DNA of 55,659 nt from Companilactobacillus kedongensis. Its GTDB lineage: Bacteria; Bacillota; Bacilli; Lactobacillales; Lactobacillaceae. The position numbers and the translations under genes were made by a program. Under the pieces are notes generated by a model. The model searched no databases and was not told the origin of the DNA. It saw only the letters and a program-made list of their open reading frames with translations. This document shows positions 43,948 through 55,659 of the stretch, one piece after another (position 1 is the stretch's first letter; each line of letters begins with the position of its first letter). The stretch is from the NCBI RefSeq assembly GCF_003946625.1, contig NZ_RHOR01000015.1, forward strand, positions 1 through 55,659, written 5' to 3'.

Positions 43948-43974
43948 AAAAAGCACACCTACGTTGGGTGTGCT
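43948..43974 (-). terminator. Minus-strand terminator at the trailer side of the CRISPR region
   Basis: AAGCACACC, loop TACGTT, GGGTGTGCTT, followed on the minus strand by TTTTTATAT. The 24-bp core is identical to the terminator at 51946-51969 between the two cas9 genes. Confidence 0.7.
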
Positions 43975-44075
43975 TAATCGATTGATTGTATTGAAATAAT
44001 TTTAATATCTGCAATAACCATAGTTTCAATAATACTACCATGATAAAATGCAATTATTGAAAGAGAGGAATAAAA

Positions 44076-44303
44076 ATGACAACTCAAGCAAGATCAATAC
44101 GTATCGACTCAAACTTGGATAAAGCAATTAACGATTACTTAAAAGTTACAGGACAAAGTTTCAATAGTTTTGCTGAAACAGCGATGGCCGACAAATTAGA
44201 GGATCTGCTAGATATGAAAGATTATTCAAATGTCAAAATAAATGATGACGGTTCCAGGTTTACTGTGGATGAAGTGGTTAAAAAATTAGGTATTGATTTA
44301 TAG
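44076..44303 (+). CDS. Ribbon-helix-helix RelB-like protein (orphan antitoxin candidate)
   Basis: 75 residues. It begins MTTQARSIRIDSNLDKAIND, a beta strand and helix of the RHH DNA-binding fold, then YLKVTGQSFNSFAETAMADKLEDLLDMKDY, like DUF6290/RelB-type antitoxins. GAGAGGAA precedes the ATG. No complete toxin gene follows. The next 150 bp contain only short broken frames, one reading KRLKKNG as in the N-terminal part of some RelE toxins, so the toxin may have decayed. It lies against the CRISPR array on the opposite strand. Confidence 0.65.
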   Translation: MTTQARSIRIDSNLDKAINDYLKVTGQSFNSFAETAMADKLEDLLDMKDYSNVKINDDGSRFTVDEVVKKLGIDL

Positions 44304-44463: not shown

Positions 44464-46019
44464 TTTTTACTATTACTAAATCCTTAAGAGTACAAAAACA
44501 GGGAGATACAAATGGAAAAGACAAAAGATGTTTTACTATTACTAAATCCTTAAGAGTACAAAAACAGTAGTTGCATTATTTTATTCCATAGAGTAGTTTT
44601 ACTATTACTAAATCCTTAAGAGTACAAAAACGTACCATCTAACCAATATTTACAATCGATTGTTTTACTATTACTAAATCCTTAAGAGTACAAAAACCTG
44701 TGGGGGCTACATATTTGCTGTTTTTTCGTTTTACTATTACTAAATCCTTAAGAGTACAAAAACGAAAGCGATGGATGATTGGATACAGAAGCTAGTTTTA
44801 CTATTACTAAATCCTTAAGAGTACAAAAACATTACGTTAATTCAATTAATCCTGATCACTGTTTTACTATTACTAAATCCTTAAGAGTACAAAAACTGGG
44901 ACATGTAATTGATGTGGTACATTCGCGTTTTACTATTACTAAATCCTTAAGAGTACAAAAACAACCGATTCACATAAATACATTTGATTGTAGTTTTACT
45001 ATTACTAAATCCTTAAGAGTACAAAAACAAGGCTCTTGTGGCAGTATTTACTTGGTTGGTTTTACTATTACTAAATCCTTAAGAGTACAAAAACAGCTGT
45101 GATAGATACGATTTTGAAAAGGGTGTTTTACTATTACTAAATCCTTAAGAGTACAAAAACATTAAGGAGTTCTCCTTAATCCGCTGGAATGTTTTACTAT
45201 TACTAAATCCTTAAGAGTACAAAAACATAAGTGCAAGCATTAGCTTCATTTGACGGGTTTTACTATTACTAAATCCTTAAGAGTACAAAAACATGGCCTT
45301 TGTTGTAATGGAGCTTGACGTAAGTTTTACTATTACTAAATCCTTAAGAGTACAAAAACATACGTTTGGAACGAGAAAACCGGCGAACCGTTTTACTATT
45401 ACTAAATCCTTAAGAGTACAAAAACGAGGTAACTGGTAAAGCTGAGCCAATGATCGTTTTACTATTACTAAATCCTTAAGAGTACAAAAACATCAAGCTT
45501 GTTTTCTCCTAAGACACGGTAGTTTTACTATTACTAAATCCTTAAGAGTACAAAAACATAGCCTTAACGCCCGTATCATCAGTGACTGTTTTACTATTAC
45601 TAAATCCTTAAGAGTACAAAAACCCAGAATATGACGAAATCAAGTGTAGAAACGTTTTACTATTACTAAATCCTTAAGAGTACAAAAACGTACGGTGCCT
45701 TTAACTTACCGGGCTTCGTGTTTTACTATTACTAAATCCTTAAGAGTACAAAAACACTTATCCGTTTTAATTTTCGGTGTATCTGGTTTTACTATTACTA
45801 AATCCTTAAGAGTACAAAAACGATGACTCAGGCCAATAACTATCTTAGTTGGTTTTACTATTACTAAATCCTTAAGAGTACAAAAACACTTGTTGCTGCT
45901 CCATATTCTTTAAAGAAGTTTTACTATTACTAAATCCTTAAGAGTACAAAAACGCAATGACCACAAATGATGGTTCGTCATAGGTTTTACTATTACTAAA
46001 TCCTTAAGAGTACAAAAAC
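44464..46019 (-). CRISPR. Type II-A CRISPR array, 24 repeats and 23 spacers
   Basis: The repeat is 36 bp. In the transcribed (minus) direction it starts GTTTTTGTACTC and ends AATAGTAAAAC, close to repeats used by small type II-A Cas9s such as Streptococcus thermophilus CRISPR1. Repeat starts step by 66 bp from 44464 to 45984; 21 spacers are 30 bp and two (starting 44764 and 45293) are 31 bp. All repeats look identical except the trailer-end one at 44464-44499, which has a changed end base, as expected for the oldest unit. The array lies downstream of csn2 in the same direction. Spacer targets cannot be searched here. Confidence 0.98.
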
Positions 46020-46045: not shown

Positions 46046-47068
46046 TCAACCTTCCAAAAATTTGGCTTCTGCATCTGTCAGTAACTGATCTTCAAAACTA
46101 AATGACGTCTCGTAGTTGAGAATCTCACTTACTACCTTCAATAATACCAAATCTTTGCTATTAAGAAACAATTTTTCTTTAATTCCAATATATGGAATAA
46201 TCCGTTGCATTGATTCAACAAATTTCTCTTCACTACTATTAAATTCATTAGGATAATTATTCTTTACCGAGCGTAATAGTTCGTCAGTTGGCAACAACTG
46301 ATCAAATTCATCAGCAGCCACGACAATTTTTTCTAAATCCGTTGCGTCTATTGGTAAATTATCAAGATTATTACCGATATAAACTACTCGCAAATCATAT
46401 TCGCCCAATAACTCTTTTACCTCGATAAAGAAGTTATTTTTTTCGTACTGAGAAATAAAGCTGTCAACATTGTACAAAACAAGCCACGTTGGGTGACTAT
46501 TCTTGCTCAATTTAAATCTCAAAAAGTTTAGAAATTCATCTAACAAACTTTCAGTATTCATAAATTCCAAAGGATAATTCTTCGAATTTTCTTGATAGTT
46601 TAATACTAAAAAATTCTTTAACATCTCAAGATAGTTTAGATCCTGAAAATTTACTCGCAAATTATTAGAATAGTTATCTAAGAATTCTTGAACCTTGATT
46701 TCTAAACGAAAATTCTCATTATTCATATTCTCAATTGCATGGTCAATATCAACATCATCACTCAGTCCATTCAGTAATTCATACAATAAAGTATCTTTCT
46801 TATACTGCATTTGTTGATAAATACTGTCTCGATTATTTATAAAGAAAACATCGTTATTTTTTACGGAAACCTTATCGCCATCAATATACAATTCGATATT
46901 ATTATCTCCGTAAATATTAGAGGTCAGACTAGGACTACGGTTGAAGTAATAATATAAACTCCGAAATACCGTCCACAACTTCTTGTGATCAATTCCAGTT
47001 AAATAGACAATATCGTCAAAATCAAGATCCAAGAATTTTTGATTTTCTAACTCAATTTTTAATATCAT
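46046..47068 (-). CDS. csn2: Csn2, long form, spacer acquisition
   Basis: 340 residues, matching the long Csn2 subfamily (about 350 residues) rather than the short 220-residue form. The fold is P-loop derived with degenerate nucleotide motifs; Csn2 forms a tetrameric ring that slides on DNA ends during adaptation. The start overlaps the cas2 stop as ATGA. It is the last cas gene, with the array leader directly after it. Assignment rests on position, length and the start LKIELENQKFLDLDF; primary sequence is poorly conserved in this family. Confidence 0.88.
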   Translation of the reverse strand: MILKIELENQKFLDLDFDDIVYLTGIDHKKLWTVFRSLYYYFNRSPSLTSNIYGDNNIELYIDGDKVSVKNNDVFFINNRDSIYQQMQYKKDTLLYELLNGLSDDVDIDHAIENMNNENFRLEIKVQEFLDNYSNNLRVNFQDLNYLEMLKNFLVLNYQENSKNYPLEFMNTESLLDEFLNFLRFKLSKNSHPTWLVLYNVDSFISQYEKNNFFIEVKELLGEYDLRVVYIGNNLDNLPIDATDLEKIVVAADEFDQLLPTDELLRSVKNNYPNEFNSSEEKFVESMQRIIPYIGIKEKLFLNSKDLVLLKVVSEILNYETSFSFEDQLLTDAEAKFLEG

Positions 47069-47388
47069 ATGATCACCAGATCCTTATTACCGACAACCGT
47101 TTCTTGTTTGCTCTTACTACCAACAAGAACCTGCATATCCTCAAATTGCTTTTCACTGACAGCCATAAGTCTGATCTCACCATTTTCTGGCAAAAAGTAT
47201 TCAATTGCATTTTGATATTTCTTACCAGCTGAACGATTAGGAATCGAACGATAATAAACTGAATATTGTAGCATCATGAAACCATTTCTGATTAGTTCCT
47301 TTCTGAAGATACGGTATTGTCGCTGCTGTTTTGGTGTATCCATTGGTAAATCAAATAAGCACATCATTCTCATATTTTGATATTTCAA
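47065..47388 (-). CDS. cas2: Cas2, spacer acquisition
   Basis: 107 residues. Ferredoxin-like fold start MRMMCLFDLPMDTPKQQRQYR with the conserved Asp, followed by GFMMLQYSVYYRSIP. With Cas1 it forms the integrase complex. The start is TTG overlapping the cas1 stop (TTGA); an ATG five codons later at 47373 is the alternative. Overlaps with cas1 and csn2 indicate one coupled adaptation unit. Confidence 0.94.
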   Translation of the reverse strand: MKYQNMRMMCLFDLPMDTPKQQRQYRIFRKELIRNGFMMLQYSVYYRSIPNRSAGKKYQNAIEYFLPENGEIRLMAVSEKQFEDMQVLVGSKSKQETVVGNKDLVII

Positions 47389-48293
47389 CTTTCTTCACCC
47401 ACGAAATTTTTTAAGTCGATATTCAATAAAGCATCTGAATCATTAGCTTCTATCGCAGTTATAAAACTGGTGACAAATTCCTGCATTGAATTATCTATCG
47501 ACATTTTCTTACCCTTAACTTTAATTTTATGATTCATAAACTTAATTATTTCAAGTCTCGATTCATAACTCAGATAGTTTTTATCACCTAAAAGGTTTTG
47601 ATTGATCCAATAGTCCATCAACGGACGATACGGTTCCATCAAGTCATCAACCAAGTTAAAGCTATTAAATTCGTTTTTATGGAATATTCCTAGCATTGTC
47701 ACCAATCCGTTACCGACCACGATTCTTGCCATGCATGACCTTAAAATTGCATAGCCAAAGTTCATAGCAGCATTGATAACACTGTCATCCCCACGAGTAA
47801 AACTCTTTCCATACAGTGAATCAAAATATACCTTAGCAACGTGACCTTCCCGATTTGTCTTATCGCCAACTACCAGATCAGACACTAAATCTTCCATTAA
47901 TTCAAGTCGTTCTTGTTCAACTCCAGTCCACCTGGCAAAAGCTATCTGGTTATCCATCTTTTGTTTAATGACAGTTTGCCAAATCAAACCTTTCTGTTCA
48001 GCAGTCCAAGAAGCTTGTTTGATGACTCGTTTTGAATAATGGTGATATTGACCATATGGTAAGTAGATACCAACAGGTAAATACTTGTCATCACAAATTA
48101 CTAAACCGATATTGTTCTGACTTAAACTAGACATCAATTTGGTAGTTATCGAGGTTTTATTCCCCTCAAGTACAACCATCGTAATATCAGACAACGGTAC
48201 ATAAAATTTATCGTCTCTCTTTCTGATTTCTAAATTATCCAATCTAAGCCTTAATAAATCGCCTTCCTTAACATGAACAATCCTCCATGCCAT
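47385..48293 (-). CDS. cas1: Cas1, spacer integrase
   Basis: 302 residues. The metal-binding active site is seen as Glu in TNREGHVAKVYF, His in GIFHKNEFN, and acidic residues in LVDDLMEPYRPLMD. It cuts and joins new spacers at the leader-repeat border. GGAGG lies seven bases before the ATG. The terminator of the tracrRNA separates it from cas9-1, so adaptation genes may be transcribed from a promoter inside or after the tracrRNA. Confidence 0.97.
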   Translation of the reverse strand: MAWRIVHVKEGDLLRLRLDNLEIRKRDDKFYVPLSDITMVVLEGNKTSITTKLMSSLSQNNIGLVICDDKYLPVGIYLPYGQYHHYSKRVIKQASWTAEQKGLIWQTVIKQKMDNQIAFARWTGVEQERLELMEDLVSDLVVGDKTNREGHVAKVYFDSLYGKSFTRGDDSVINAAMNFGYAILRSCMARIVVGNGLVTMLGIFHKNEFNSFNLVDDLMEPYRPLMDYWINQNLLGDKNYLSYESRLEIIKFMNHKIKVKGKKMSIDNSMQEFVTSFITAIEANDSDALLNIDLKNFVGEES

Positions 48294-48318
48294 AAGCTAT
48301 CCTCCTAAATTTTTCGGA

Positions 48319-48403
48319 AAAAAAAACCACCTAGCAAGTAGGTGGTAAATTCGGAATAAATCCTTATTTTTGTAGATCCTTAAGAATTTAGTAATAGTAA
48401 AAC
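48319..48403 (-). ncRNA. tracrRNA
   Basis: Minus strand. The anti-repeat (48372-48403) begins GTTTTACTATTACTAAAT and pairs with the crRNA repeat except for a small bulge. Next comes the nexus region with AAGGATTTATTCCGAAT, then a hairpin CCACCTA-GCAAG-TAGGTGG (48328-48346) ending in about nine T. The order and bases resemble the S. thermophilus CRISPR1 tracrRNA. It is between cas9-1 and cas1. No second tracrRNA is seen in the window. The exact 5' end and promoter are not certain; AT-rich sequence upstream (48404-48468) is the likely promoter zone. Confidence 0.92.
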
Positions 48404-48468
48404 GTCGAATGAATATATTCAAACATATAAGGCGTCCCTTACAAATTCATAATATCATAAACTATCCA

Positions 48469-51400
48469 TTAATCAAGGATATCTTTAGGATTTTCTCCCT
48501 CTTTTTCTAAGTAAAATGGATTACCTAGTATATCCGTATTAACCTTCCAAATTTTACAATTTTTTGGTACTAGACGCTTAATAATTTGTTTCTTTGCAGA
48601 ACCGTATACTGGCCAATCATCATTATCAGTCTTATATTTATATATTGGCTTAAGTTCTACATATCCTTTTTGCTTATCCATTGTACGGGACCAGAATAGC
48701 ATTTCAACACTTTCACCAGTTTCTAAATTTTCAACCTTAATGCGATCTTTTTTATACAGACTAAATATAAATTCAGAATCATCAGATACCCTTTCTCGGT
48801 ATTTAATCTCTAGATATTTTTTAAGTTTAATCCCATATCCTTCATCTTCATTAAACTTAAGATCAGCATATTTAATTCCCATGATCTCATATTCACCAGT
48901 TTCATGATTCAAATAGACATCAGTCCTCCATGGATTTAATGATTGTAAAATAACATGTTTGTTGTTAGCATTTTCAGGTGTTATATCAATATTAGATCCA
49001 ATTTTCTTATCCAAATATTTGAGCTGTCTTATTTCAGGTCCATTATTTTTCTTTGAATATTTTCTCACTGGTCCATGATCTACGCGATAAAGTTCAAATG
49101 GAGATATATCAACTGTCTTGACTTTATTATCCCTCCCCATTTTTTCAATAGAACTAGGATAAGTATTCATAATTTCTTCTAAATGATTAAAACTTCTTGG
49201 ATCATACTTATTCAATAAAAATTTAGATTTATCCTTATCGCATATTTTTTTGAATCTAACATATTCTTTGTAATCATAAATATTCTTAATTTTTCCAACA
49301 ATATACTCTGATTCTTCTTTGTCCTTGGCAAGCATCCCGGATCTTGTAGAATATATCGTTGAATCACTGACTTTACGATTCATTTTCTTATCAACTTGAT
49401 GTGAAAATTTAATTCTATCGTCAGCATTCATAAGTTCATCAACAAAGCCATTGTATGGTTGTTCATAAACTTCCTTGTCAAAAGTCTTATCATCAATTAT
49501 CTCACCAGTTTCAATATCTACAGTATTATCGCCTTCAACTTTGACAGGGAATATACTGGCTCCTTTTTTCCAAATATTTAAAAACGGAGTCGAAGCAATT
49601 ATTGATGCATCAATAGCATGATGATGGAAAGTTTCTCTGGTCTTATTGATATGCCAATGTTTACGCATATTAGAAGTAAACTTACCACGAATAACTGTAA
49701 CTTTTGTATTAACTTCTTTTTCTCTAAAGAATTCTTGTAAACTATTTAAAACAACTCTTGAAGAATATCTAGTATCAACTAAATTACGAGAAATAAATCT
49801 CTTCCGTGTATCGATATCACTAACATTTTCAGAGAAAAGATAGTTTTTACGTTTATTCTTGTTAAATCTTGTATTTTTAATTACCATGGCCTTCATGGAA
49901 TCAAATCCCTGACCATGACCCTCATTCATGAATTCAAATGGAGTCTTTTGTCCTTTAATTTGATTCATTTCGGCATAACAAAGTGTCTTGTTATTGATAC
50001 TATCATCAAATGAAATGGATTGCGGTATTATATGATCTATTTCAAAATTATCAGGATTGTTTAATAAATCAGATGCTGAAATTACTTTTCCATTGTACAC
50101 ATCTATTTTCTGTTGTTGATACCAAAGCCTGATCTTGAAAAATAGCTTTGACCCATATTTTCGCAAACCATCATCCACCAACGACTTGCTACCAACAGAA
50201 TTAGTAAATTCTTTAAGGGCTTCATCCTTTTGCTTCTTATTTTTGTTTTGAAAATCTTTAATTTGCTTTTTTGCATCGTCCTCATTCTTATCACGAGGCA
50301 TTTCTACAACAACATAGTCAATATGACCATATTCCTTCAATACAGCATTAACAATTTTTAAAGCTTCACGAACCGATTTAGCGGCGACTGGATTATAAAT
50401 ATCTTGGGCAATTTGTTTATATGGCAAATACTTATATTGGCTATACTTCTTGCCATTGTCTTTTATCAACCCCATTTCATTGATCAGGGTCATCTGTTCG
50501 ACTGGACGCTTTAACATTTCTGGTATTAGTAGTTTCATTGTCTTAACAGACAGTCTGTGCCACTTGTTATTAGACGTAACATTAAAACTAGCTTTATTGT
50601 CGATAATTAATTGAATCAAATCATCAGTCAAAAAATCAAAGTCCGGTTGTAATTTATTACGTAGCTGTTTTCTAATCTCACCATTCTCTGTGTTGAGTGT
50701 CAAAATAGAACTAAGTCGATCTAAGAAGTCCGTAGACCAGTCAGATATATCAACATCCGACTCTAAGAATTTTTTATGGACCTTACGATAAATTTCCATT
50801 GAACTTATTTCCGGTTTGTCTTTATCGTCAGTGCGATAACCAGCAATATCCGAGTCATCACAATCTGCAACTTTTTTGATCAACTTGATCATATTAACGG
50901 TAGTTTTATTATTTTTTAATTCTGATAAGATCTGTCTCTTATCATTCTCAGTTAATTTTTGATCTTCATAACTCAAAATACGTAAGTTATTCAAATCATT
51001 TAAAACATTAAACACTTGCGCAGTATAGGAAGCACCAGAAGCTCTTAATTCATCAGGAAAGATTTTATCATGACCAATCAATTCTTCAAATAGATTTTCT
51101 AACTTGCGTCCATCTTCCTTATAAATTCCATAATCAGTTCTTGATTTTTCACTACCTGGACCCTTAAAGTAATCCCTTTTTCGATTTAATATTTTACAAT
51201 ATGCATCTTCAAATTCTTCAGTTAATACCTCTGGATAGAATTCTCTTTGCTTTTCAATGATTCGTTTTGCCTCATCGATGTACGCTTTTGTAGTGAAGAC
51301 ATTCAACAACACTTCTCCTTCATCAGCATCAACGACAACTGTTCCTCTGGTAGCACCGTGTTTAGATAAACGATCTAATTGTATTTGTGCAGGTGTTTGA

Positions 51401-51861
51401 GTTTTCAACTCTTTAGTATTAAGCTGCAAACTTTTAGCATAATCTGAACCTTCGGATTCATCGTCAACATCTTTCAAATCGTAACTTATTCCTCGACGCT
51501 TCACGATATGATATAGACTTACAGCAATTTCTGATAAGTTTAACCTTTCGGATAATCCTTTTACCCGTAATTCATATGGATTGGAATTGTTGTCAAAATG
51601 GTCAAAATAGTTTTTATCTTCTTTGGAATCAATCAACTTAAATTTGTTGAATAGTTTGGCAGTATCCTTACGACGCTGTTTTTTTCGATTAGTTGATCTA
51701 CGGGCACCACGCATACTTCTACGTGTCTGATTTTCTTCACCTATCTTACCATTGATCAATCGTGATCCTAATTCAAGAATCTTACCAGCTCTAGGATCTA
51801 TTACACTGAATCCAACCGAAGATACACCGATATCTAATCCTAAACTTATTTTTCGATCCAT
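48469..51861 (-). CDS. cas9: Cas9-1, type II-A effector nuclease with complete active sites
   Basis: 1130 residues from the ATG at 51861 (GGAGG eight bases upstream; an earlier in-frame ATG at 51876 overlaps that site). Small type II-A Cas9, about the size of S. thermophilus CRISPR1 Cas9. RuvC-I LGLDIGVSSVGFSVID (D10), Arg-rich bridge helix (residues 47-66), REC lobe, RuvC-II VVVEMPRD (E520), HNH EIDHIIPQS (H610) with N633, RuvC-III FHHHAIDAS (H748, D751), then WED and PAM-interacting domains. It should cut both strands of target DNA. It has its own promoter upstream. Confidence 0.97.
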   Translation of the reverse strand: MDRKISLGLDIGVSSVGFSVIDPRAGKILELGSRLINGKIGEENQTRRSMRGARRSTNRKKQRRKDTAKLFNKFKLIDSKEDKNYFDHFDNNSNPYELRVKGLSERLNLSEIAVSLYHIVKRRGISYDLKDVDDESEGSDYAKSLQLNTKELKTQTPAQIQLDRLSKHGATRGTVVVDADEGEVLLNVFTTKAYIDEAKRIIEKQREFYPEVLTEEFEDAYCKILNRKRDYFKGPGSEKSRTDYGIYKEDGRKLENLFEELIGHDKIFPDELRASGASYTAQVFNVLNDLNNLRILSYEDQKLTENDKRQILSELKNNKTTVNMIKLIKKVADCDDSDIAGYRTDDKDKPEISSMEIYRKVHKKFLESDVDISDWSTDFLDRLSSILTLNTENGEIRKQLRNKLQPDFDFLTDDLIQLIIDNKASFNVTSNNKWHRLSVKTMKLLIPEMLKRPVEQMTLINEMGLIKDNGKKYSQYKYLPYKQIAQDIYNPVAAKSVREALKIVNAVLKEYGHIDYVVVEMPRDKNEDDAKKQIKDFQNKNKKQKDEALKEFTNSVGSKSLVDDGLRKYGSKLFFKIRLWYQQQKIDVYNGKVISASDLLNNPDNFEIDHIIPQSISFDDSINNKTLCYAEMNQIKGQKTPFEFMNEGHGQGFDSMKAMVIKNTRFNKNKRKNYLFSENVSDIDTRKRFISRNLVDTRYSSRVVLNSLQEFFREKEVNTKVTVIRGKFTSNMRKHWHINKTRETFHHHAIDASIIASTPFLNIWKKGASIFPVKVEGDNTVDIETGEIIDDKTFDKEVYEQPYNGFVDELMNADDRIKFSHQVDKKMNRKVSDSTIYSTRSGMLAKDKEESEYIVGKIKNIYDYKEYVRFKKICDKDKSKFLLNKYDPRSFNHLEEIMNTYPSSIEKMGRDNKVKTVDISPFELYRVDHGPVRKYSKKNNGPEIRQLKYLDKKIGSNIDITPENANNKHVILQSLNPWRTDVYLNHETGEYEIMGIKYADLKFNEDEGYGIKLKKYLEIKYRERVSDDSEFIFSLYKKDRIKVENLETGESVEMLFWSRTMDKQKGYVELKPIYKYKTDNDDWPVYGSAKKQIIKRLVPKNCKIWKVNTDILGNPFYLEKEGENPKDILD

Positions 51862-51897
51862 CTTAAATTCCTCCATTCAAATTAAATCTATGAGTTT

Positions 51898-51927
51898 AAT
51901 ATATCAGTGTCAGTATACGGAAATCAA
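51898..51927 (-). promoter_or_regulatory. Promoter of cas9-1
   Basis: Minus strand: -35 TTGATT (51922-51927), 18-bp spacer, -10 TATATT (51898-51903). Transcription should start near 51890, about 30 bp before the start codon. It sits directly after the terminator at 51942-51973. Confidence 0.65.
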
Positions 51928-51941
51928 TAATTCAGGAAAAT

Positions 51942-51973
51942 AAAAAAGCACACCTACGTTGGGTGTGCTTTTT
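51942..51973 (-). terminator. Terminator between cas9-2/solo repeat and cas9-1
   Basis: AAAAAAGCACACC and GGGTGTGCTTTTT form a long stem with loop TACGTT, with T runs in both directions. The minus-strand product would end the solo-repeat RNA three bases after the repeat. The core is identical to 43951-43974. Confidence 0.85.
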
Positions 51974-52034
51974 AACGTTCTACTATTACTAAATCCTTAA
52001 GGGTACAAAATTACATCTATCAGGTCCAACATAA
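51974..52034 (-). ncRNA. Candidate crRNA-like regulatory RNA (guide plus solo repeat)
   Basis: On the minus strand a perfect -10 box TATAAT (52041-52046) would start a transcript near 52034. That gives about 22 bases of guide-like sequence ending CTGATAGATGT, then the solo repeat, then directly the terminator at 51942-51973. This matches the layout of stand-alone crRNA-like regulators such as CreR or scaRNA. No convincing -35 box is seen. Whether it is expressed is unknown. Confidence 0.45.
51977..52012 (-). repeat. Solo degenerate CRISPR repeat between the two cas9 genes
   Basis: 36 bp, in crRNA orientation, matching 32 of 36 positions of the array repeat. The changes are at positions 1 and 2 (both to A), 11 (T to C) and 33 (A to G). 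The 3' part still pairs fully with the tracrRNA anti-repeat, the position-33 change giving a G-U pair. There is no second repeat and no leader motif beside it. Confidence 0.9.
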
Positions 52035-52104: not shown

Positions 52105-55100
52105 TTATTCAAGAATATCCTTAGGCCCGCTGCCTTCCCTTTCCAAATAGAATGGATTACCAAGTATATCAGTATTGACCTTCCAGATCTTACAATTCTT
52201 AGGCACTAAACGTTTAACTAATCGTTTACTTTTACCATAAATCGGTAACTCATCATCACTAGTCAGACTTTTAATAGGCTTTAATTCCGCGTATCCTTTT
52301 TGTTTCTCCATTGTTCGTGACCAGAATAAAACTTCTACACTTTCGCCACTCTCAATATTTTTAACTTTGATTCGATCTTTCTTATACAACGTAAACATAA
52401 ACTCAGAATCATCGGATACTTCTTCACGATGTTTTATTTCAAGGTACTTATCGCGCTTGATTCCATATCCTTCACCCTTATTGAATTTGAGATCAGAATA
52501 TTTGATGCCCATAATTTCATACTCATTGGTTTCATGGTTCAAGTAAACATCAGTCCGCCATGGTTTCAACGACTGTAAGACTACTCGTTTATTTCTAGTA
52601 TTTGCAGGTGTGATATCAATGGTCGAACCAACTTTTTTATCCAAGTACTTAAGTTGCTTTATTTCTGGACCATTATTTTTCTTTGCATACTTTCTGATGG
52701 GTCCATTATCTCGACGGTAAAGTTCAAACGGTGAAGCACTGAACATTCTAACTTTACCCCTTATTCTTTCTTCAAACGAATCAGGATAAGTGTTCATGAT
52801 TCTTTCTAATTGAGCAAAGCTTTTTGAATCATACTTATTTAATAAGAACTTAGTTTTGTCTTTGTCATAAATTTTCTTAAATTTGGCATACTCGTCAATA
52901 TCATAAATATCTTTGATTTTGGCGACTACATACTCGGACGTCCCTTCATCTTTGGCAAGCTTACCAAATCTAGTCGAATAAACAGTTGAATCACTGATTT
53001 TACGGTTCATCTTCTTATCGATTTGATGAGAAAACTTCACTCTGTCATCACTGTTCTTTAATTCACTTTCAAATCCAGAGTATGGTTCTTGATAAGTGTA
53101 TTTAAGATATTCTCTTGTACTTAGAATTTCACCAAGTTTAATATCGAGAACATCCCCATCTAAACTATTAGGAAACATACTAAATCCATGTTTCCAAATA
53201 GTTAAAAATGGCATCGCAGCTATGATGGATGCATCAATTGCATAATAATGATACGTTTCTCTAGAATTCTTTATCTGCCAATACTTACGCATATTTGAAG
53301 TAAATTTACTACGGATAACTGAAACTTTGGTGTCTATACCCTTTTCATCAAAGAAGTCATGCAGACCATTAAAAACCACCTTAGAGGAATATCTCGTATC
53401 AATCAAATTACGAGTAATAAATCTCTTTCTTGTGTTTGAATCTCTTATATCTTCTTCATAAAAATAATTTCTTCTCTTGAGATTTAATCGAGAATTCTTT
53501 AATACCATATCTTTCATAGCTACATAACTCTGACCATAACCCTCATTAAGATATTCAAACGGCGTCATCTTATCTTTCAGCTGATTCATTTCAGCATAAC
53601 AGAGAGTTTTATTATTTATCCCATCGTCAAAGGAAATTGAAACCGGCACAATGTGATCTATTTCAAGTTTAGATCCATTTTGCAAAATATCTTCTGGTTG
53701 AATGGCTCTACCACTGTATAAATCCATTCCTTTTTGTTGATACCACAATCGTATTTTGAAACGAATATTGCTGCTTAATTTATCGTATTCATCACTGGAA
53801 ATACCAGTTGCTTCGATGAATTCTTCCTTAGCATCCATTATTTCTCTAGAATTCGTTCTTTGAAATGACTCAATATTTCTTTTTTCTTCGTCTTCATTTT
53901 TATCACGCGGCATTTGGGCAACGATATAGTCAATATGTTCATATTCCTTCATCACTGCATTAACAATTTTTAATGCTTCACGTACTACCTTGGATACGAC
54001 TGGATTATAAATATCTTCTGCAATTTTCTTGTAAGGCAAATGCTTATACTTACTATATTTAGGGCCATTGTTCTTAACTAATCCCATTTGCTTGATCAAG
54101 TCATTTTGCCCAATTGAATTTTTTATCATTTCAGGTATCAATAAATCCATTGTCTTAATAGATAACCTATGCCAACTATTACTAGATGTAACATCAAAAC
54201 TGGCTTTATTATCAATGATCAATTGAATCAAATCATCACTTAAAAAATCATATTGAGATTGCAAAAGGTTCTCAAGCTGATTTCTTATTTCACCATTATC
54301 AGTGTTAAGCGTCAAAATAAAACTCAAGTTGTCAAAAAAATCGGTTGGCCATTCGTTAATATCAACGTTATTATCTAAAAACTTTCGATGTACTTTACGG
54401 TATGTTGCCATTGAACTGATATCTGGTTTTCCTCTAGTATCAATTCGATACCCTTTAATGTCAGAGCCATCACAATTAGCTATCTTTTTAATAAGCTTGA
54501 TCATATTTATATTTGAAGTATTACTCTTCAATTCTTCTATGATTTGCTCTTTATCTTTGGGAGTCAATTTCTGATCCCCATAGCTCAGAATACGCAAATT
54601 ATTTAAATCATCCAAAACATCAAATTTCTGTGCTGTATAAGATGCTCCAGCGGCTCTCAATTCATCAGGAAAGATCTTATCGTGACCAATCAACTCTTCA
54701 AACAAATTATTCAAGATTCGTCCATCTGTTTTAAATATTCCGTAATCAGTCCGAGACTTGACGCTACCGGGACCTACAAAATAACTTCTTTTACGTGATA
54801 CTATTTGGCAATACTTTTCTTCAAATTCATCGGTTAATATATCTGGATAGAATTCTCGTTGTTTTTTGATAATACGTTTTGCTTCGTCAAGGTAGGCTTT
54901 GGTTGGAAAAATATTAAGTAGAGTTTCATTATCAGTAACAACTTTACCTCTAATAGCACCATACTCATTTAATCTTTTCAATTGAATTTGAGCTGGCGTC
55001 TGCGTTTTTAATTCAAGGTTATTGATCTTTAATCCATTGGCATATTCTGAATCTTCTGCTTCAGAATCAACATCTTTCAAATCGTAACTGATACCACGTC

Positions 55101-55464
55101 TCTTAACGATGTGATACAAACTATCTGCAATTTCTGACGTAGTTAATTGTTTTGACAAGCCCTTAACTCTTAATTCATAAGGATTAGAATTATCAACAAA
55201 ATTATCAAAATAGTGTTCATTATTCTTTGAATCTATCAATCCAAATTGATCAAATAACTTAGTTACATCCTTACGACGTTGCTTTTTCCTATTATTTAAT
55301 CTACGTGAGCCTCGCATATATCTGCGGGTCAAGTTCTCTTCACCGACTTTTCCATTTATCAGACGCGAGCCCAGCTCAAGGATTTTACCAGCTTCAGCGT
55401 CTATTACACTGAATCCGACCGATGAAACACCGATATTTAATCCTAAACTTATCTTTCGATCCAC
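52105..55464 (-). CDS. Cas9-2, Cas9 paralogue with RuvC catalytic residues replaced and HNH intact
   Basis: 1119 residues, an uninterrupted frame from GTG at 55464 with GGGGGAG five bases upstream. It aligns with Cas9-1 along the whole length; by eye roughly two thirds or more of residues are identical, with bridge helix, REC lobe, WED and C-terminal domain all present. RuvC-I reads LGLNIGVSS (N10 in place of Asp), RuvC-II reads IVAQMPRD (Q517 in place of Glu), RuvC-III reads YHYYAIDAS (Y741 in place of the catalytic His; D744 kept). HNH is kept: EIDHIVPVS (H604) and MNQ (N627). Predicted: guide-directed DNA binding with at most one-strand cleavage. It precedes cas9-1 and is separated from it by a terminator. 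Confidence 0.95.
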   Translation of the reverse strand: MDRKISLGLNIGVSSVGFSVIDAEAGKILELGSRLINGKVGEENLTRRYMRGSRRLNNRKKQRRKDVTKLFDQFGLIDSKNNEHYFDNFVDNSNPYELRVKGLSKQLTTSEIADSLYHIVKRRGISYDLKDVDSEAEDSEYANGLKINNLELKTQTPAQIQLKRLNEYGAIRGKVVTDNETLLNIFPTKAYLDEAKRIIKKQREFYPDILTDEFEEKYCQIVSRKRSYFVGPGSVKSRTDYGIFKTDGRILNNLFEELIGHDKIFPDELRAAGASYTAQKFDVLDDLNNLRILSYGDQKLTPKDKEQIIEELKSNTSNINMIKLIKKIANCDGSDIKGYRIDTRGKPDISSMATYRKVHRKFLDNNVDINEWPTDFFDNLSFILTLNTDNGEIRNQLENLLQSQYDFLSDDLIQLIIDNKASFDVTSSNSWHRLSIKTMDLLIPEMIKNSIGQNDLIKQMGLVKNNGPKYSKYKHLPYKKIAEDIYNPVVSKVVREALKIVNAVMKEYEHIDYIVAQMPRDKNEDEEKRNIESFQRTNSREIMDAKEEFIEATGISSDEYDKLSSNIRFKIRLWYQQKGMDLYSGRAIQPEDILQNGSKLEIDHIVPVSISFDDGINNKTLCYAEMNQLKDKMTPFEYLNEGYGQSYVAMKDMVLKNSRLNLKRRNYFYEEDIRDSNTRKRFITRNLIDTRYSSKVVFNGLHDFFDEKGIDTKVSVIRSKFTSNMRKYWQIKNSRETYHYYAIDASIIAAMPFLTIWKHGFSMFPNSLDGDVLDIKLGEILSTREYLKYTYQEPYSGFESELKNSDDRVKFSHQIDKKMNRKISDSTVYSTRFGKLAKDEGTSEYVVAKIKDIYDIDEYAKFKKIYDKDKTKFLLNKYDSKSFAQLERIMNTYPDSFEERIRGKVRMFSASPFELYRRDNGPIRKYAKKNNGPEIKQLKYLDKKVGSTIDITPANTRNKRVVLQSLKPWRTDVYLNHETNEYEIMGIKYSDLKFNKGEGYGIKRDKYLEIKHREEVSDDSEFMFTLYKKDRIKVKNIESGESVEVLFWSRTMEKQKGYAELKPIKSLTSDDELPIYGKSKRLVKRLVPKNCKIWKVNTDILGNPFYLEREGSGPKDILE

Positions 55465-55518
55465 ATCGACTCCCCCAATTTGTCATAAAATACACAAGTT
55501 AAATATATCATAATAAAA

Positions 55519-55596
55519 ACCACCCGTAAAACGGGTGGTTTTCTCTGAGGCTATAAGCCTCTTCCACTAGCCAGCGTCTCAAGACGCTGGCTTTTG
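55519..55596 (-). terminator. Cluster of three hairpins upstream of cas9-2
   Basis: ACCACCCGT/ACGGGTGGT (55519-55539), GAGGCT/AGCCTC (55547-55561) and AGCCAGCGTCT/AGACGCTGGCT (55569-55592). The first ends in TTTTTATT on the minus strand, so it terminates an unseen gene to the right. The third ends in TTTTG on the plus strand. No gene is visible from 55465 to 55659 and no clear -35/-10 pair for cas9-2 was found. Confidence 0.65.
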
Positions 55597-55659
55597 TATA
55601 CCAAAGCCAAACTGCTTTTATCACTTTTGCCACCGCTTTAAGCGATATTCGTACTACTT

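Follow-up and report, generated by a model that had tools for sequence, protein, structure and literature searches.

Can a bacterium keep, beside a working Cas9, a second Cas9 that has lost the means to cut both DNA strands, and if so, for what? The question is raised by a 55,659-nucleotide stretch of DNA from the food-type lactic acid bacterium Companilactobacillus kedongensis (the window; NZ_RHOR01000015.1, contig C7 of a 2.27-Mb, 37-contig genome), in which two full-length cas9 genes follow one another on the minus strand. One of them, cas9-1, encodes a protein with all RuvC and HNH catalytic residues, and cas1, cas2, csn2, the trans-activating CRISPR RNA (tracrRNA) gene and a CRISPR array adjoin it, in agreement with the first-pass annotation, in which the other paralogue, Cas9-2, was held to be kept beside an active Cas9. 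Cas9-2 carries replacements at three of the four RuvC catalytic positions in an uninterrupted frame. With a probability of about one half, we read Cas9-2 as a natural Cas9 that does not make double-strand cuts and is kept as a guide-loaded DNA-binding protein that reads the protospacer-adjacent motif (PAM).

RuvC and HNH residues of Cas9-2

The gene and its informative codons are as follows.

52105..55464, minus strand: cas9-2, encoding the RuvC-dead Cas9 paralogue (1119 aa, GTG start)
55435-55437, minus strand: RuvC-I D10N, codon AAT as read (Cas9-1 has GAT, D, at 51832-51834)
53914-53916, minus strand: RuvC-II E517Q, codon CAA as read (Cas9-1 has GAA, E, at 50302-50304)
53242-53244, minus strand: RuvC-III H741Y, codon TAT as read (Cas9-1 has CAT, H, at 49618-49620)
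53653..53655, minus strand: HNH H604 codon, retained (from the alignment; coordinate computed from the frame)
53584..53586, minus strand: HNH N627 codon, retained (from the alignment; coordinate computed from the frame)

The first-pass annotation, made from the DNA letters alone, had reported the three RuvC replacements, the retention of H604 and N627 and the open frame of 1119 codons, and each of these was borne out. The Cas9 family model TIGR01865 matches Cas9-2 over residues 6-1103, its full length, with 588 bits (cut-off, 100). A further replacement that had been overlooked, H740Y, lies directly before the catalytic H741. The RuvC catalytic set D, E, H, D reads N, Q, Y, D, with D744 kept, and the HNH residues D603, H604, N618 and N627 are all present in the alignment. 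Cas9-2 was compared with 22 other Cas9 proteins, comprising 13 intact ones from the genus, Cas9-1 and 8 from the family (nine family loci were considered; L031 was left out because the motif script returned no frame). Positions D10, E517, H740 and H741 are unchanged in 22/22 of these proteins, and Cas9-2 alone has N, Q, Y and Y; the RuvC-III D and the HNH D, H, N and N are likewise kept in all 22. Orthologues with the same N/Q/Y set, for which the first-pass annotation had proposed a search, thus numbered 0 of the 22 aligned Cas9s. Several catalytic changes, together with drift throughout the nuclease module of an open frame, speak against a sequencing artefact.

The best match to Cas9-2 among solved structures is the Cas9 of Streptococcus thermophilus CRISPR1 (St1Cas9, type II-A), with a phmmer score of 880 bits. 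Alignment to the solved structure 6rj9 places the changed positions D10, E517 and H741 on St1Cas9 D9, E509 and H738, where Cas9-2 differs in having N, Q and Y; the St1Cas9 counterparts of H604 and N627 are H599 and N622, and that of D744 is D741 (St1Cas9 residue numbers were counted by hand along the alignment). The suggestion that the changes fall on RuvC catalytic sites therefore held in this alignment as well. St1Cas9 is also the best match by fold, with the same domain order, and the Csn2 of the window belongs to the St subfamily too. AlphaFold modelled Cas9-2 with a mean local confidence (predicted local distance difference test, pLDDT) of 75.1 and a predicted template modelling score (pTM) of 0.36, compared with 72.9 and 0.36 for Cas9-1. 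The best Foldseek matches of the Cas9-2 model were 6m0w, 6m0x and 6m0v, all St1Cas9, at low global template modelling scores (∼0.3) that support the fold family only, since the model leaves the arrangement of the domains uncertain.

Engineered D10A/D9A nickases and dead Cas9 (dCas9) have RuvC inactivated likewise, through loss of a metal ligand. Cas9-2, known from its sequence, differs from them in being natural, in having three catalytic positions replaced at once and in drifting across the whole module. On the basis of the RuvC changes, double-strand cleavage by Cas9-2 is predicted to be absent.

Uneven change along an open frame

Domains were placed from Pfam matches and from what we take to be the domain limits of SaCas9 and St1Cas9, so that all limits are approximate. 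The Cas9-2 share of tree length was 28% in L2 plus RuvC-III, 17% in HNH and 15% in RuvC-II, compared with 5.5% in RuvC-I plus the bridge helix, 5.5 to 10% in REC and 5% in PI; the Cas9 of Companilactobacillus tucceti took 2 to 7% in all regions. The ratio of the nuclease share to the share in the rest of the protein was 2.8 for Cas9-2 (2.1-3.5 in 40 bootstraps) and 0.23-1.06 in the 13 tips other than Cas9-2 and C. tucceti. Relative to the three nearest Cas9s, lineage-specific changes were enriched in L2 plus RuvC-III (P = 0.0005) and in HNH (Fisher P = 0.016), both uncorrected, and nonsignificantly in RuvC-II (P = 0.11). At sites otherwise invariant among the 14 other genus Cas9s, Cas9-2 has changed 15/70 positions in L2 plus RuvC-III (at most 4 in the others) and 4/34 in HNH (at most 2/32 in the others), 2/55 in PI and 0/15 in the bridge helix. 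In windowed comparisons, Cas9-2 is about as close to its relatives as these are to one another up to residue ∼406; identity to Cas9-1 is 39-65% over residues 527-820; after residue 820 the closeness returns in parts, with lower windows at 881-939 and 1058-1114. The bridge helix, most of REC and PI thus appear to evolve nearly normally. Because preservation is better in the parts that would hold guide RNA and read PAM and target than in the cutting module, and because the frame is kept, the pattern argues for a Cas9 retained for binding. The better preservation of most of REC, WED and PI would also suit a decoy, another of the roles offered in the first-pass annotation, if it were one for anti-CRISPR proteins: Cas9-2 would keep inhibitor-binding surfaces and soak inhibitors up on behalf of Cas9-1; among the explanations considered, we give this one the lowest odds.

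The first-pass annotation had also proposed a dedicated nickase. On this view HNH is under selection for the nicking of a single strand in the targets of the CRISPR RNAs (crRNAs). Engineered D10A mutants, in which RuvC is dead, are established nickases, and the persistence of all four HNH residues in a protein that has lost RuvC means that nicking or prespacer trimming may persist as well. However, the HNH domain around those residues is itself accelerated, with 24 lineage-specific changes in Cas9-2 versus 8 in C. tucceti, 2 in Cas9-1 and 2 in the genus genome G016, and several changes at otherwise invariant sites fall in L2, which docks HNH in known Cas9s (within approximate limits). Model confidence over the HNH stretch (residues 601-680; block means averaged by hand) was ∼65 in Cas9-2 versus ∼85 in Cas9-1, weak support for HNH relaxation. 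The intact residues that prompted the proposal therefore stand, but since HNH seems to be relaxed too, a dedicated nickase is improbable.

A more serious rival is that Cas9-2 is a relic, the one effector to survive when the other genes and the array of a first type II-A locus were deleted. It would have lost RuvC under relaxed selection and be heading for loss itself, its open frame reflecting luck and recency. We estimate its probability at somewhat below that of a binding Cas9, and it follows close behind. Replacement change was 0.131 on the Cas9-2 branch versus 0.057 for C. tucceti, an excess estimated at ∼185 changes that, if neutral, would have brought ∼14.5 stops, whereas the 1119 codons contain no stop or frameshift. 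In neutral simulations from three starting genes, with assumed base frequencies, 0/300 outcomes per gene were free of stops. Most of the excess change therefore arose while the frame was useful. In a codon model (scripted for this analysis and fitted to 8 of 15 sequences from the genus), the ratio of replacement to synonymous change (dN/dS, omega) did not differ significantly over the whole gene (0.048 on the Cas9-2 branch versus 0.034 elsewhere; twice the log-likelihood difference [2dlnL], 2.95). Neutrality (omega = 1) was rejected for the whole branch (2dlnL, 146) and for the nuclease module (2dlnL, 32.4), both with saturated dS. By region, omega was 0.038 versus 0.038 over residues 1-486, 0.038 versus 0.024 over residues 806-1119 (2dlnL, 1.6) and 0.37 versus 0.025 in L2 plus RuvC-III (2dlnL, 10.0); the fit to HNH alone (0.028 versus 0.042) returned an impossible dS of 8.7 and was not relied on. 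cas9-2 has neither the broken frame nor the neutrality along the whole gene that would mark a pseudogene, and the nearly usual rate of the bridge helix, most of REC and PI likewise counts against a relic.

The locus, its history and its guides

Further features of the locus bear on the same choice.

55511..55659, strand unassigned: end of a repeated hairpin-rich element, also present at the ends of contigs C12, C17 and C23
55502..55530, minus strand: cas9-2 promoter-like site, with ancestral extended -10 TGATATATT and the first hexamer, TTTACG, in the repeated element
51977..52012, minus strand: solo CRISPR repeat in crRNA orientation, 4/36 bases changed
51943..51973, minus strand: terminator hairpin 3′ of the solo repeat, sharing 28 identical nt with the array hairpin at 43948-43975
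51898..51927, minus strand: cas9-1 promoter-like site, TTGATT-18-TATATT with TG before, homologous to the cas9 promoter of relatives
48469..51876, minus strand: cas9-1, with all RuvC and HNH catalytic residues (from frame and alignment)
48318..48443, minus strand: tracrRNA gene, ends approximate (leader 48427-48443, anti-repeat ∼48380-48399, nexus, terminator)
47385..48293, minus strand: cas1
47065..47388, minus strand: cas2
46046..47068, minus strand: csn2, St (long) subfamily
44464..46019, minus strand: CRISPR array with 24 repeats, each 36 nt long, of which 23 are exact and the terminal one is a variant
43948..43975, minus strand: array terminator hairpin

Read along the minus strand, the order is cas9-2, cas9-1, tracrRNA, cas1, cas2, csn2 and array. 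The second locus thus holds a complete type II-A set, including 23 spacers that are 30-31 nt long (22 flanked by exact repeats on both sides, 1 preceding the terminal variant), whereas cas9-2 has no adaptation genes, tracrRNA or array of its own. The single-copy loci of C. tucceti (L004/L045) and G016 (L043) have the same gene order, a homologous cas9 promoter and a repeat that matches closely, with full identity in G016 and in some of the C. tucceti array; they differ in having one intact cas9, and the stretches inspected show neither a solo repeat nor a second promoter. In both genomes a tsaD-like gene (so labelled from the upstream DNA only) is followed by the promoter (TGATATATT), cas9, tracrRNA, cas1, cas2, csn2, the array, the hairpin and a flavodoxin gene. 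In the window, the ancestral extended -10 region precedes cas9-2, and a second copy of the cas9 promoter with the full locus follows the solo repeat and its hairpin. The arrangement resembles a tandem of two type II-A loci. Of the first, only promoter, cas9-2, last repeat and terminator would be left, presumably after a deletion that reached from behind cas9-2 up to the final repeat of an array now lost; we read the solo repeat as that final repeat. Such a remnant is what a relic would leave. The window ends inside the repeated element ∼50 bp upstream of cas9-2, a neighbour that also fits a relic; the element is probably insertion-sequence-like, although no transposase was seen in it. Behind the array, a 75-aa open reading frame (DUF6290; 44076-44303) separates the array end from the terminator hairpin; array and hairpin lie close together in G016 and C. 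tucceti.

In the full-protein tree, Cas9-2 is sister to the C. tucceti Cas9 (97%) and Cas9-1 to the G016 Cas9 (100%). A recent origin of Cas9-2 as a copy of Cas9-1 was rejected by the approximately unbiased test (P = 0.00025 for the whole protein; P = 0.0011 for the conserved lobes). The conserved lobes alone allow three placements of Cas9-2, and codon positions 1 and 2 slightly favour one other than the sister of C. tucceti. The one-base changes reported in the first-pass annotation are thus correct as codons but are best read as departures from the family consensus and not from Cas9-1. Judged by a neighbouring ABC-F gene, G016 (97%) is a closer relative of the species than C. tucceti (94%) is; set against the grouping of Cas9-2 with C. 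tucceti, this suggests that the tandem is old or that a second, related locus was acquired. We also considered whether the nuclease part had been imported from another Cas9 to give a mosaic. No donor was present among the aligned sequences (best, 59.6%, C. tucceti), and in this part Cas9-2 is less similar than Cas9-1 to 21/21 other sequences. Cas9-2-specific states recur in at least 1 of 19 other Cas9s at 30/62 sites in the nuclease part and 45/75 elsewhere, as convergence at variable sites would give.

A search of the genome with a 20-nt repeat core (up to 3 mismatches) returned one array, one tracrRNA and one solo repeat for the two Cas9s. The solo repeat is predicted to pair with the anti-repeat as well as the array repeat does (-38.9 versus -38.5 kcal/mol; shuffled mean, -9.7). 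This same-strand spacer-repeat unit behind cas9-2 (51977-52032), closed by a terminator and able to pair with the tracrRNA, would be the natural candidate if Cas9-2 were an RNA-guided repressor that, in the manner of the long tracrRNA form (tracr-L) with Cas9 or of TldR, binds a host promoter through a special guide. However, its 20-nt guide has no second site in the genome at up to 3 mismatches (seed-only matches were not searched), its 22-nt core has no match in viral contigs, and the last repeat of a lost array is the simpler reading of the unit. Nor does the tracrRNA leader share a stretch of more than 9 nt, the repeat itself aside, with the region upstream of either cas9, as a tracr-L-like guide would. 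The transcriptional regulator put forward in the first-pass annotation is weakened by these results, and we consider it very improbable.

Just upstream of the anti-repeat, the block TGTAAGGGACGCCTTAT (48427-48443) is almost unchanged across 16 tracrRNA loci of the genus (GTAAGGGACGCCTTAT is exact in 15/16; L020 is one base off) and is followed by a more variable, apparently hairpin-capable stretch; it may be a conserved 5′ leader of the tracrRNA. Tried as a guide, this leader has four other sites in the genome, each with 3 mismatches.

Rarity of the pair and possible roles

The two relatives of Cas9-2 found in named genomes are those of C. tucceti (70%) and C. suantsaicola (61%), both Companilactobacillus. 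Among 36 genus genomes, 17 match Cas9-2: its own, which alone has the tandem pair, 13 with one intact Cas9 and 3 with a broken cas9 that were left out of the counts. RuvC and HNH residues are complete in each of the 13 intact proteins and in Cas9-1. The broken genes lie in sister species, in pieces in G007 (G007:C7:15183-18564) and with in-frame stops in G023 (L014) and G033 (L020), so that cas9 decay does occur in the genus, a point in favour of a relic. Wider surveys covered 397 family genomes (86 matching Cas9-2; at most two candidates scored per genome), 395 of the order (142 with HNH_4), 398 of the class (53) and 398 of the phylum (18). These samples overlap and include the genome itself, and their match tables were inspected by eye for pairs. 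No other adjacent full-length cas9 pair was found in them; where a genome had at least two matches, these were far apart, on different contigs or fragments of one gene. Among the 59 plasmid records that matched, none did so over more than 80% of the query, and all were below 60% identity. Among the papers listed from the literature covered, which excludes most subscription journals, none was described as dealing with tandem full-length cas9 genes or a natural dead or nickase Cas9, and none of those listed on Companilactobacillus CRISPR/Cas9 concerned this locus. The nearest case is Ligilactobacillus salivarius NCK 1355, whose type II-A locus has two cas9 reading frames; these are one cas9 split in two and not two full-length genes (PMC11288051).

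Several of the results weigh against a binding Cas9, and some of them favour a relic. With the pair in only one of the genomes searched, there is no orthologue to show long-term conservation of Cas9-2. Drift extends beyond the nuclease module: Cas9-2 takes 10% of tree length in WED and has changed 15/151 otherwise invariant REC sites, with 8 of these changes falling within residues 428-459 (in G029, the relative that diverges most, the REC count is 13/149). The nuclease-to-rest ratio of the sister C. tucceti is raised too (1.69), and the whole-module excess over C. tucceti alone is modest (Fisher P = 0.036, uncorrected). The omega of the nuclease module, 0.073 versus 0.038 elsewhere, is not significantly higher (2dlnL, 2.8), and acceleration is strongest where function was lost, in L2 plus RuvC-III, for which neutrality was not rejected (2dlnL, 0.26). 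The dN/dS check suggested in the first-pass annotation thus argues against neutrality for the branch as a whole but not for this region, and because dS on the branch is saturated (∼2.7), dN/dS is weak and amino acid branch lengths were relied on instead. The branch could also combine two phases, a long one under constraint and a brief, recent one of decay. Finally, expression of cas9-2 is uncertain, since the repeated element replaces the native -35 region. Its promoter-like site (TTTACG-17-TATATT, TG before the second hexamer) and that of cas9-1 come from simple consensus scans, which gave 1 match versus 0.5 expected for cas9-2 and 4 versus 1.3 expected for cas9-1.

If Cas9-2 is nevertheless kept as a binding Cas9, it would fold, load the shared crRNA:tracrRNA and bind PAM-bearing DNA, at most nicking it. 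It could then serve as the Cas9 partner of Cas1-Cas2-Csn2 in spacer acquisition, for which a noncutting Cas9 would suffice and in which RuvC would be dispensable for the trimming of prespacers by HNH. Alternatively, it could act as a brake on Cas9-1, through competition over guides and targets. In Streptococcus pyogenes, RuvC-dead (D10A) Cas9 with Cas1-Cas2-Csn2 trims prespacers through HNH in vitro, and the nuclease activity of Cas9 is dispensable for acquisition in vivo (PMC8034620). Given this precedent, a helper in acquisition or a brake on Cas9-1 is the most economical proposal, and since neither needs a special guide, these are also the most likely roles; a choice between the two would be a guess. 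The fuller proposal of a division of labour, in which an active cutter is joined by a naturally RuvC-dead Cas9 that reads PAMs in acquisition or restrains the cutter, is possible but doubtful, a shade less probable than a relic.

Were it true, such a system would be a natural counterpart of dCas9, reached when two loci were joined in tandem and one of their nuclease modules was lost. dCas9 and Cas9 nickases are regarded as products of the laboratory; Cas9-2 offers a direct way to ask what a noncutting Cas9 is worth to a bacterium, bears on whether type II-A spacer acquisition can pass to a dedicated protein and provides a natural comparison of the Cas9 positions constrained by cutting with those constrained by binding. 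A parallel exists in TldR, which is derived from TnpB and has lost RuvC. TldR is a natural relative of an RNA-guided nuclease that acts as a transcription regulator (PMC13418256); it differs in belonging to the TnpB family and in having a regulatory guide, of which none was found for Cas9-2. Repression of cas genes by tracr-L in S. pyogenes likewise depends on Cas9 binding without cutting (PMC11417352), but there the Cas9 is an ordinary cutting one, and in the window no match of the tracr-L kind turned up in the regions upstream of the two cas9 genes.

The array itself has taken up virus DNA, since its newest spacer matches the viral contig IMGVR_UViG_2718218029_000001 at 30/30 bases (L071 239-260). 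The 3′ flank of this single protospacer, GAATAAAGAT, fits NNaWNW, the motif used for the L. salivarius Cas9 (PMC11288051). Exact searches of viral contigs with 22-nt spacer cores covered 6/23 spacers and found 1. Among the 20 of 35 phage records listed, the array gave only repeat-like and marginal short matches; several Streptococcus thermophilus phages have repeat-like matches to it, at 70-75% identity over several pieces, which are perhaps solitary CRISPR repeats carried by the phages.

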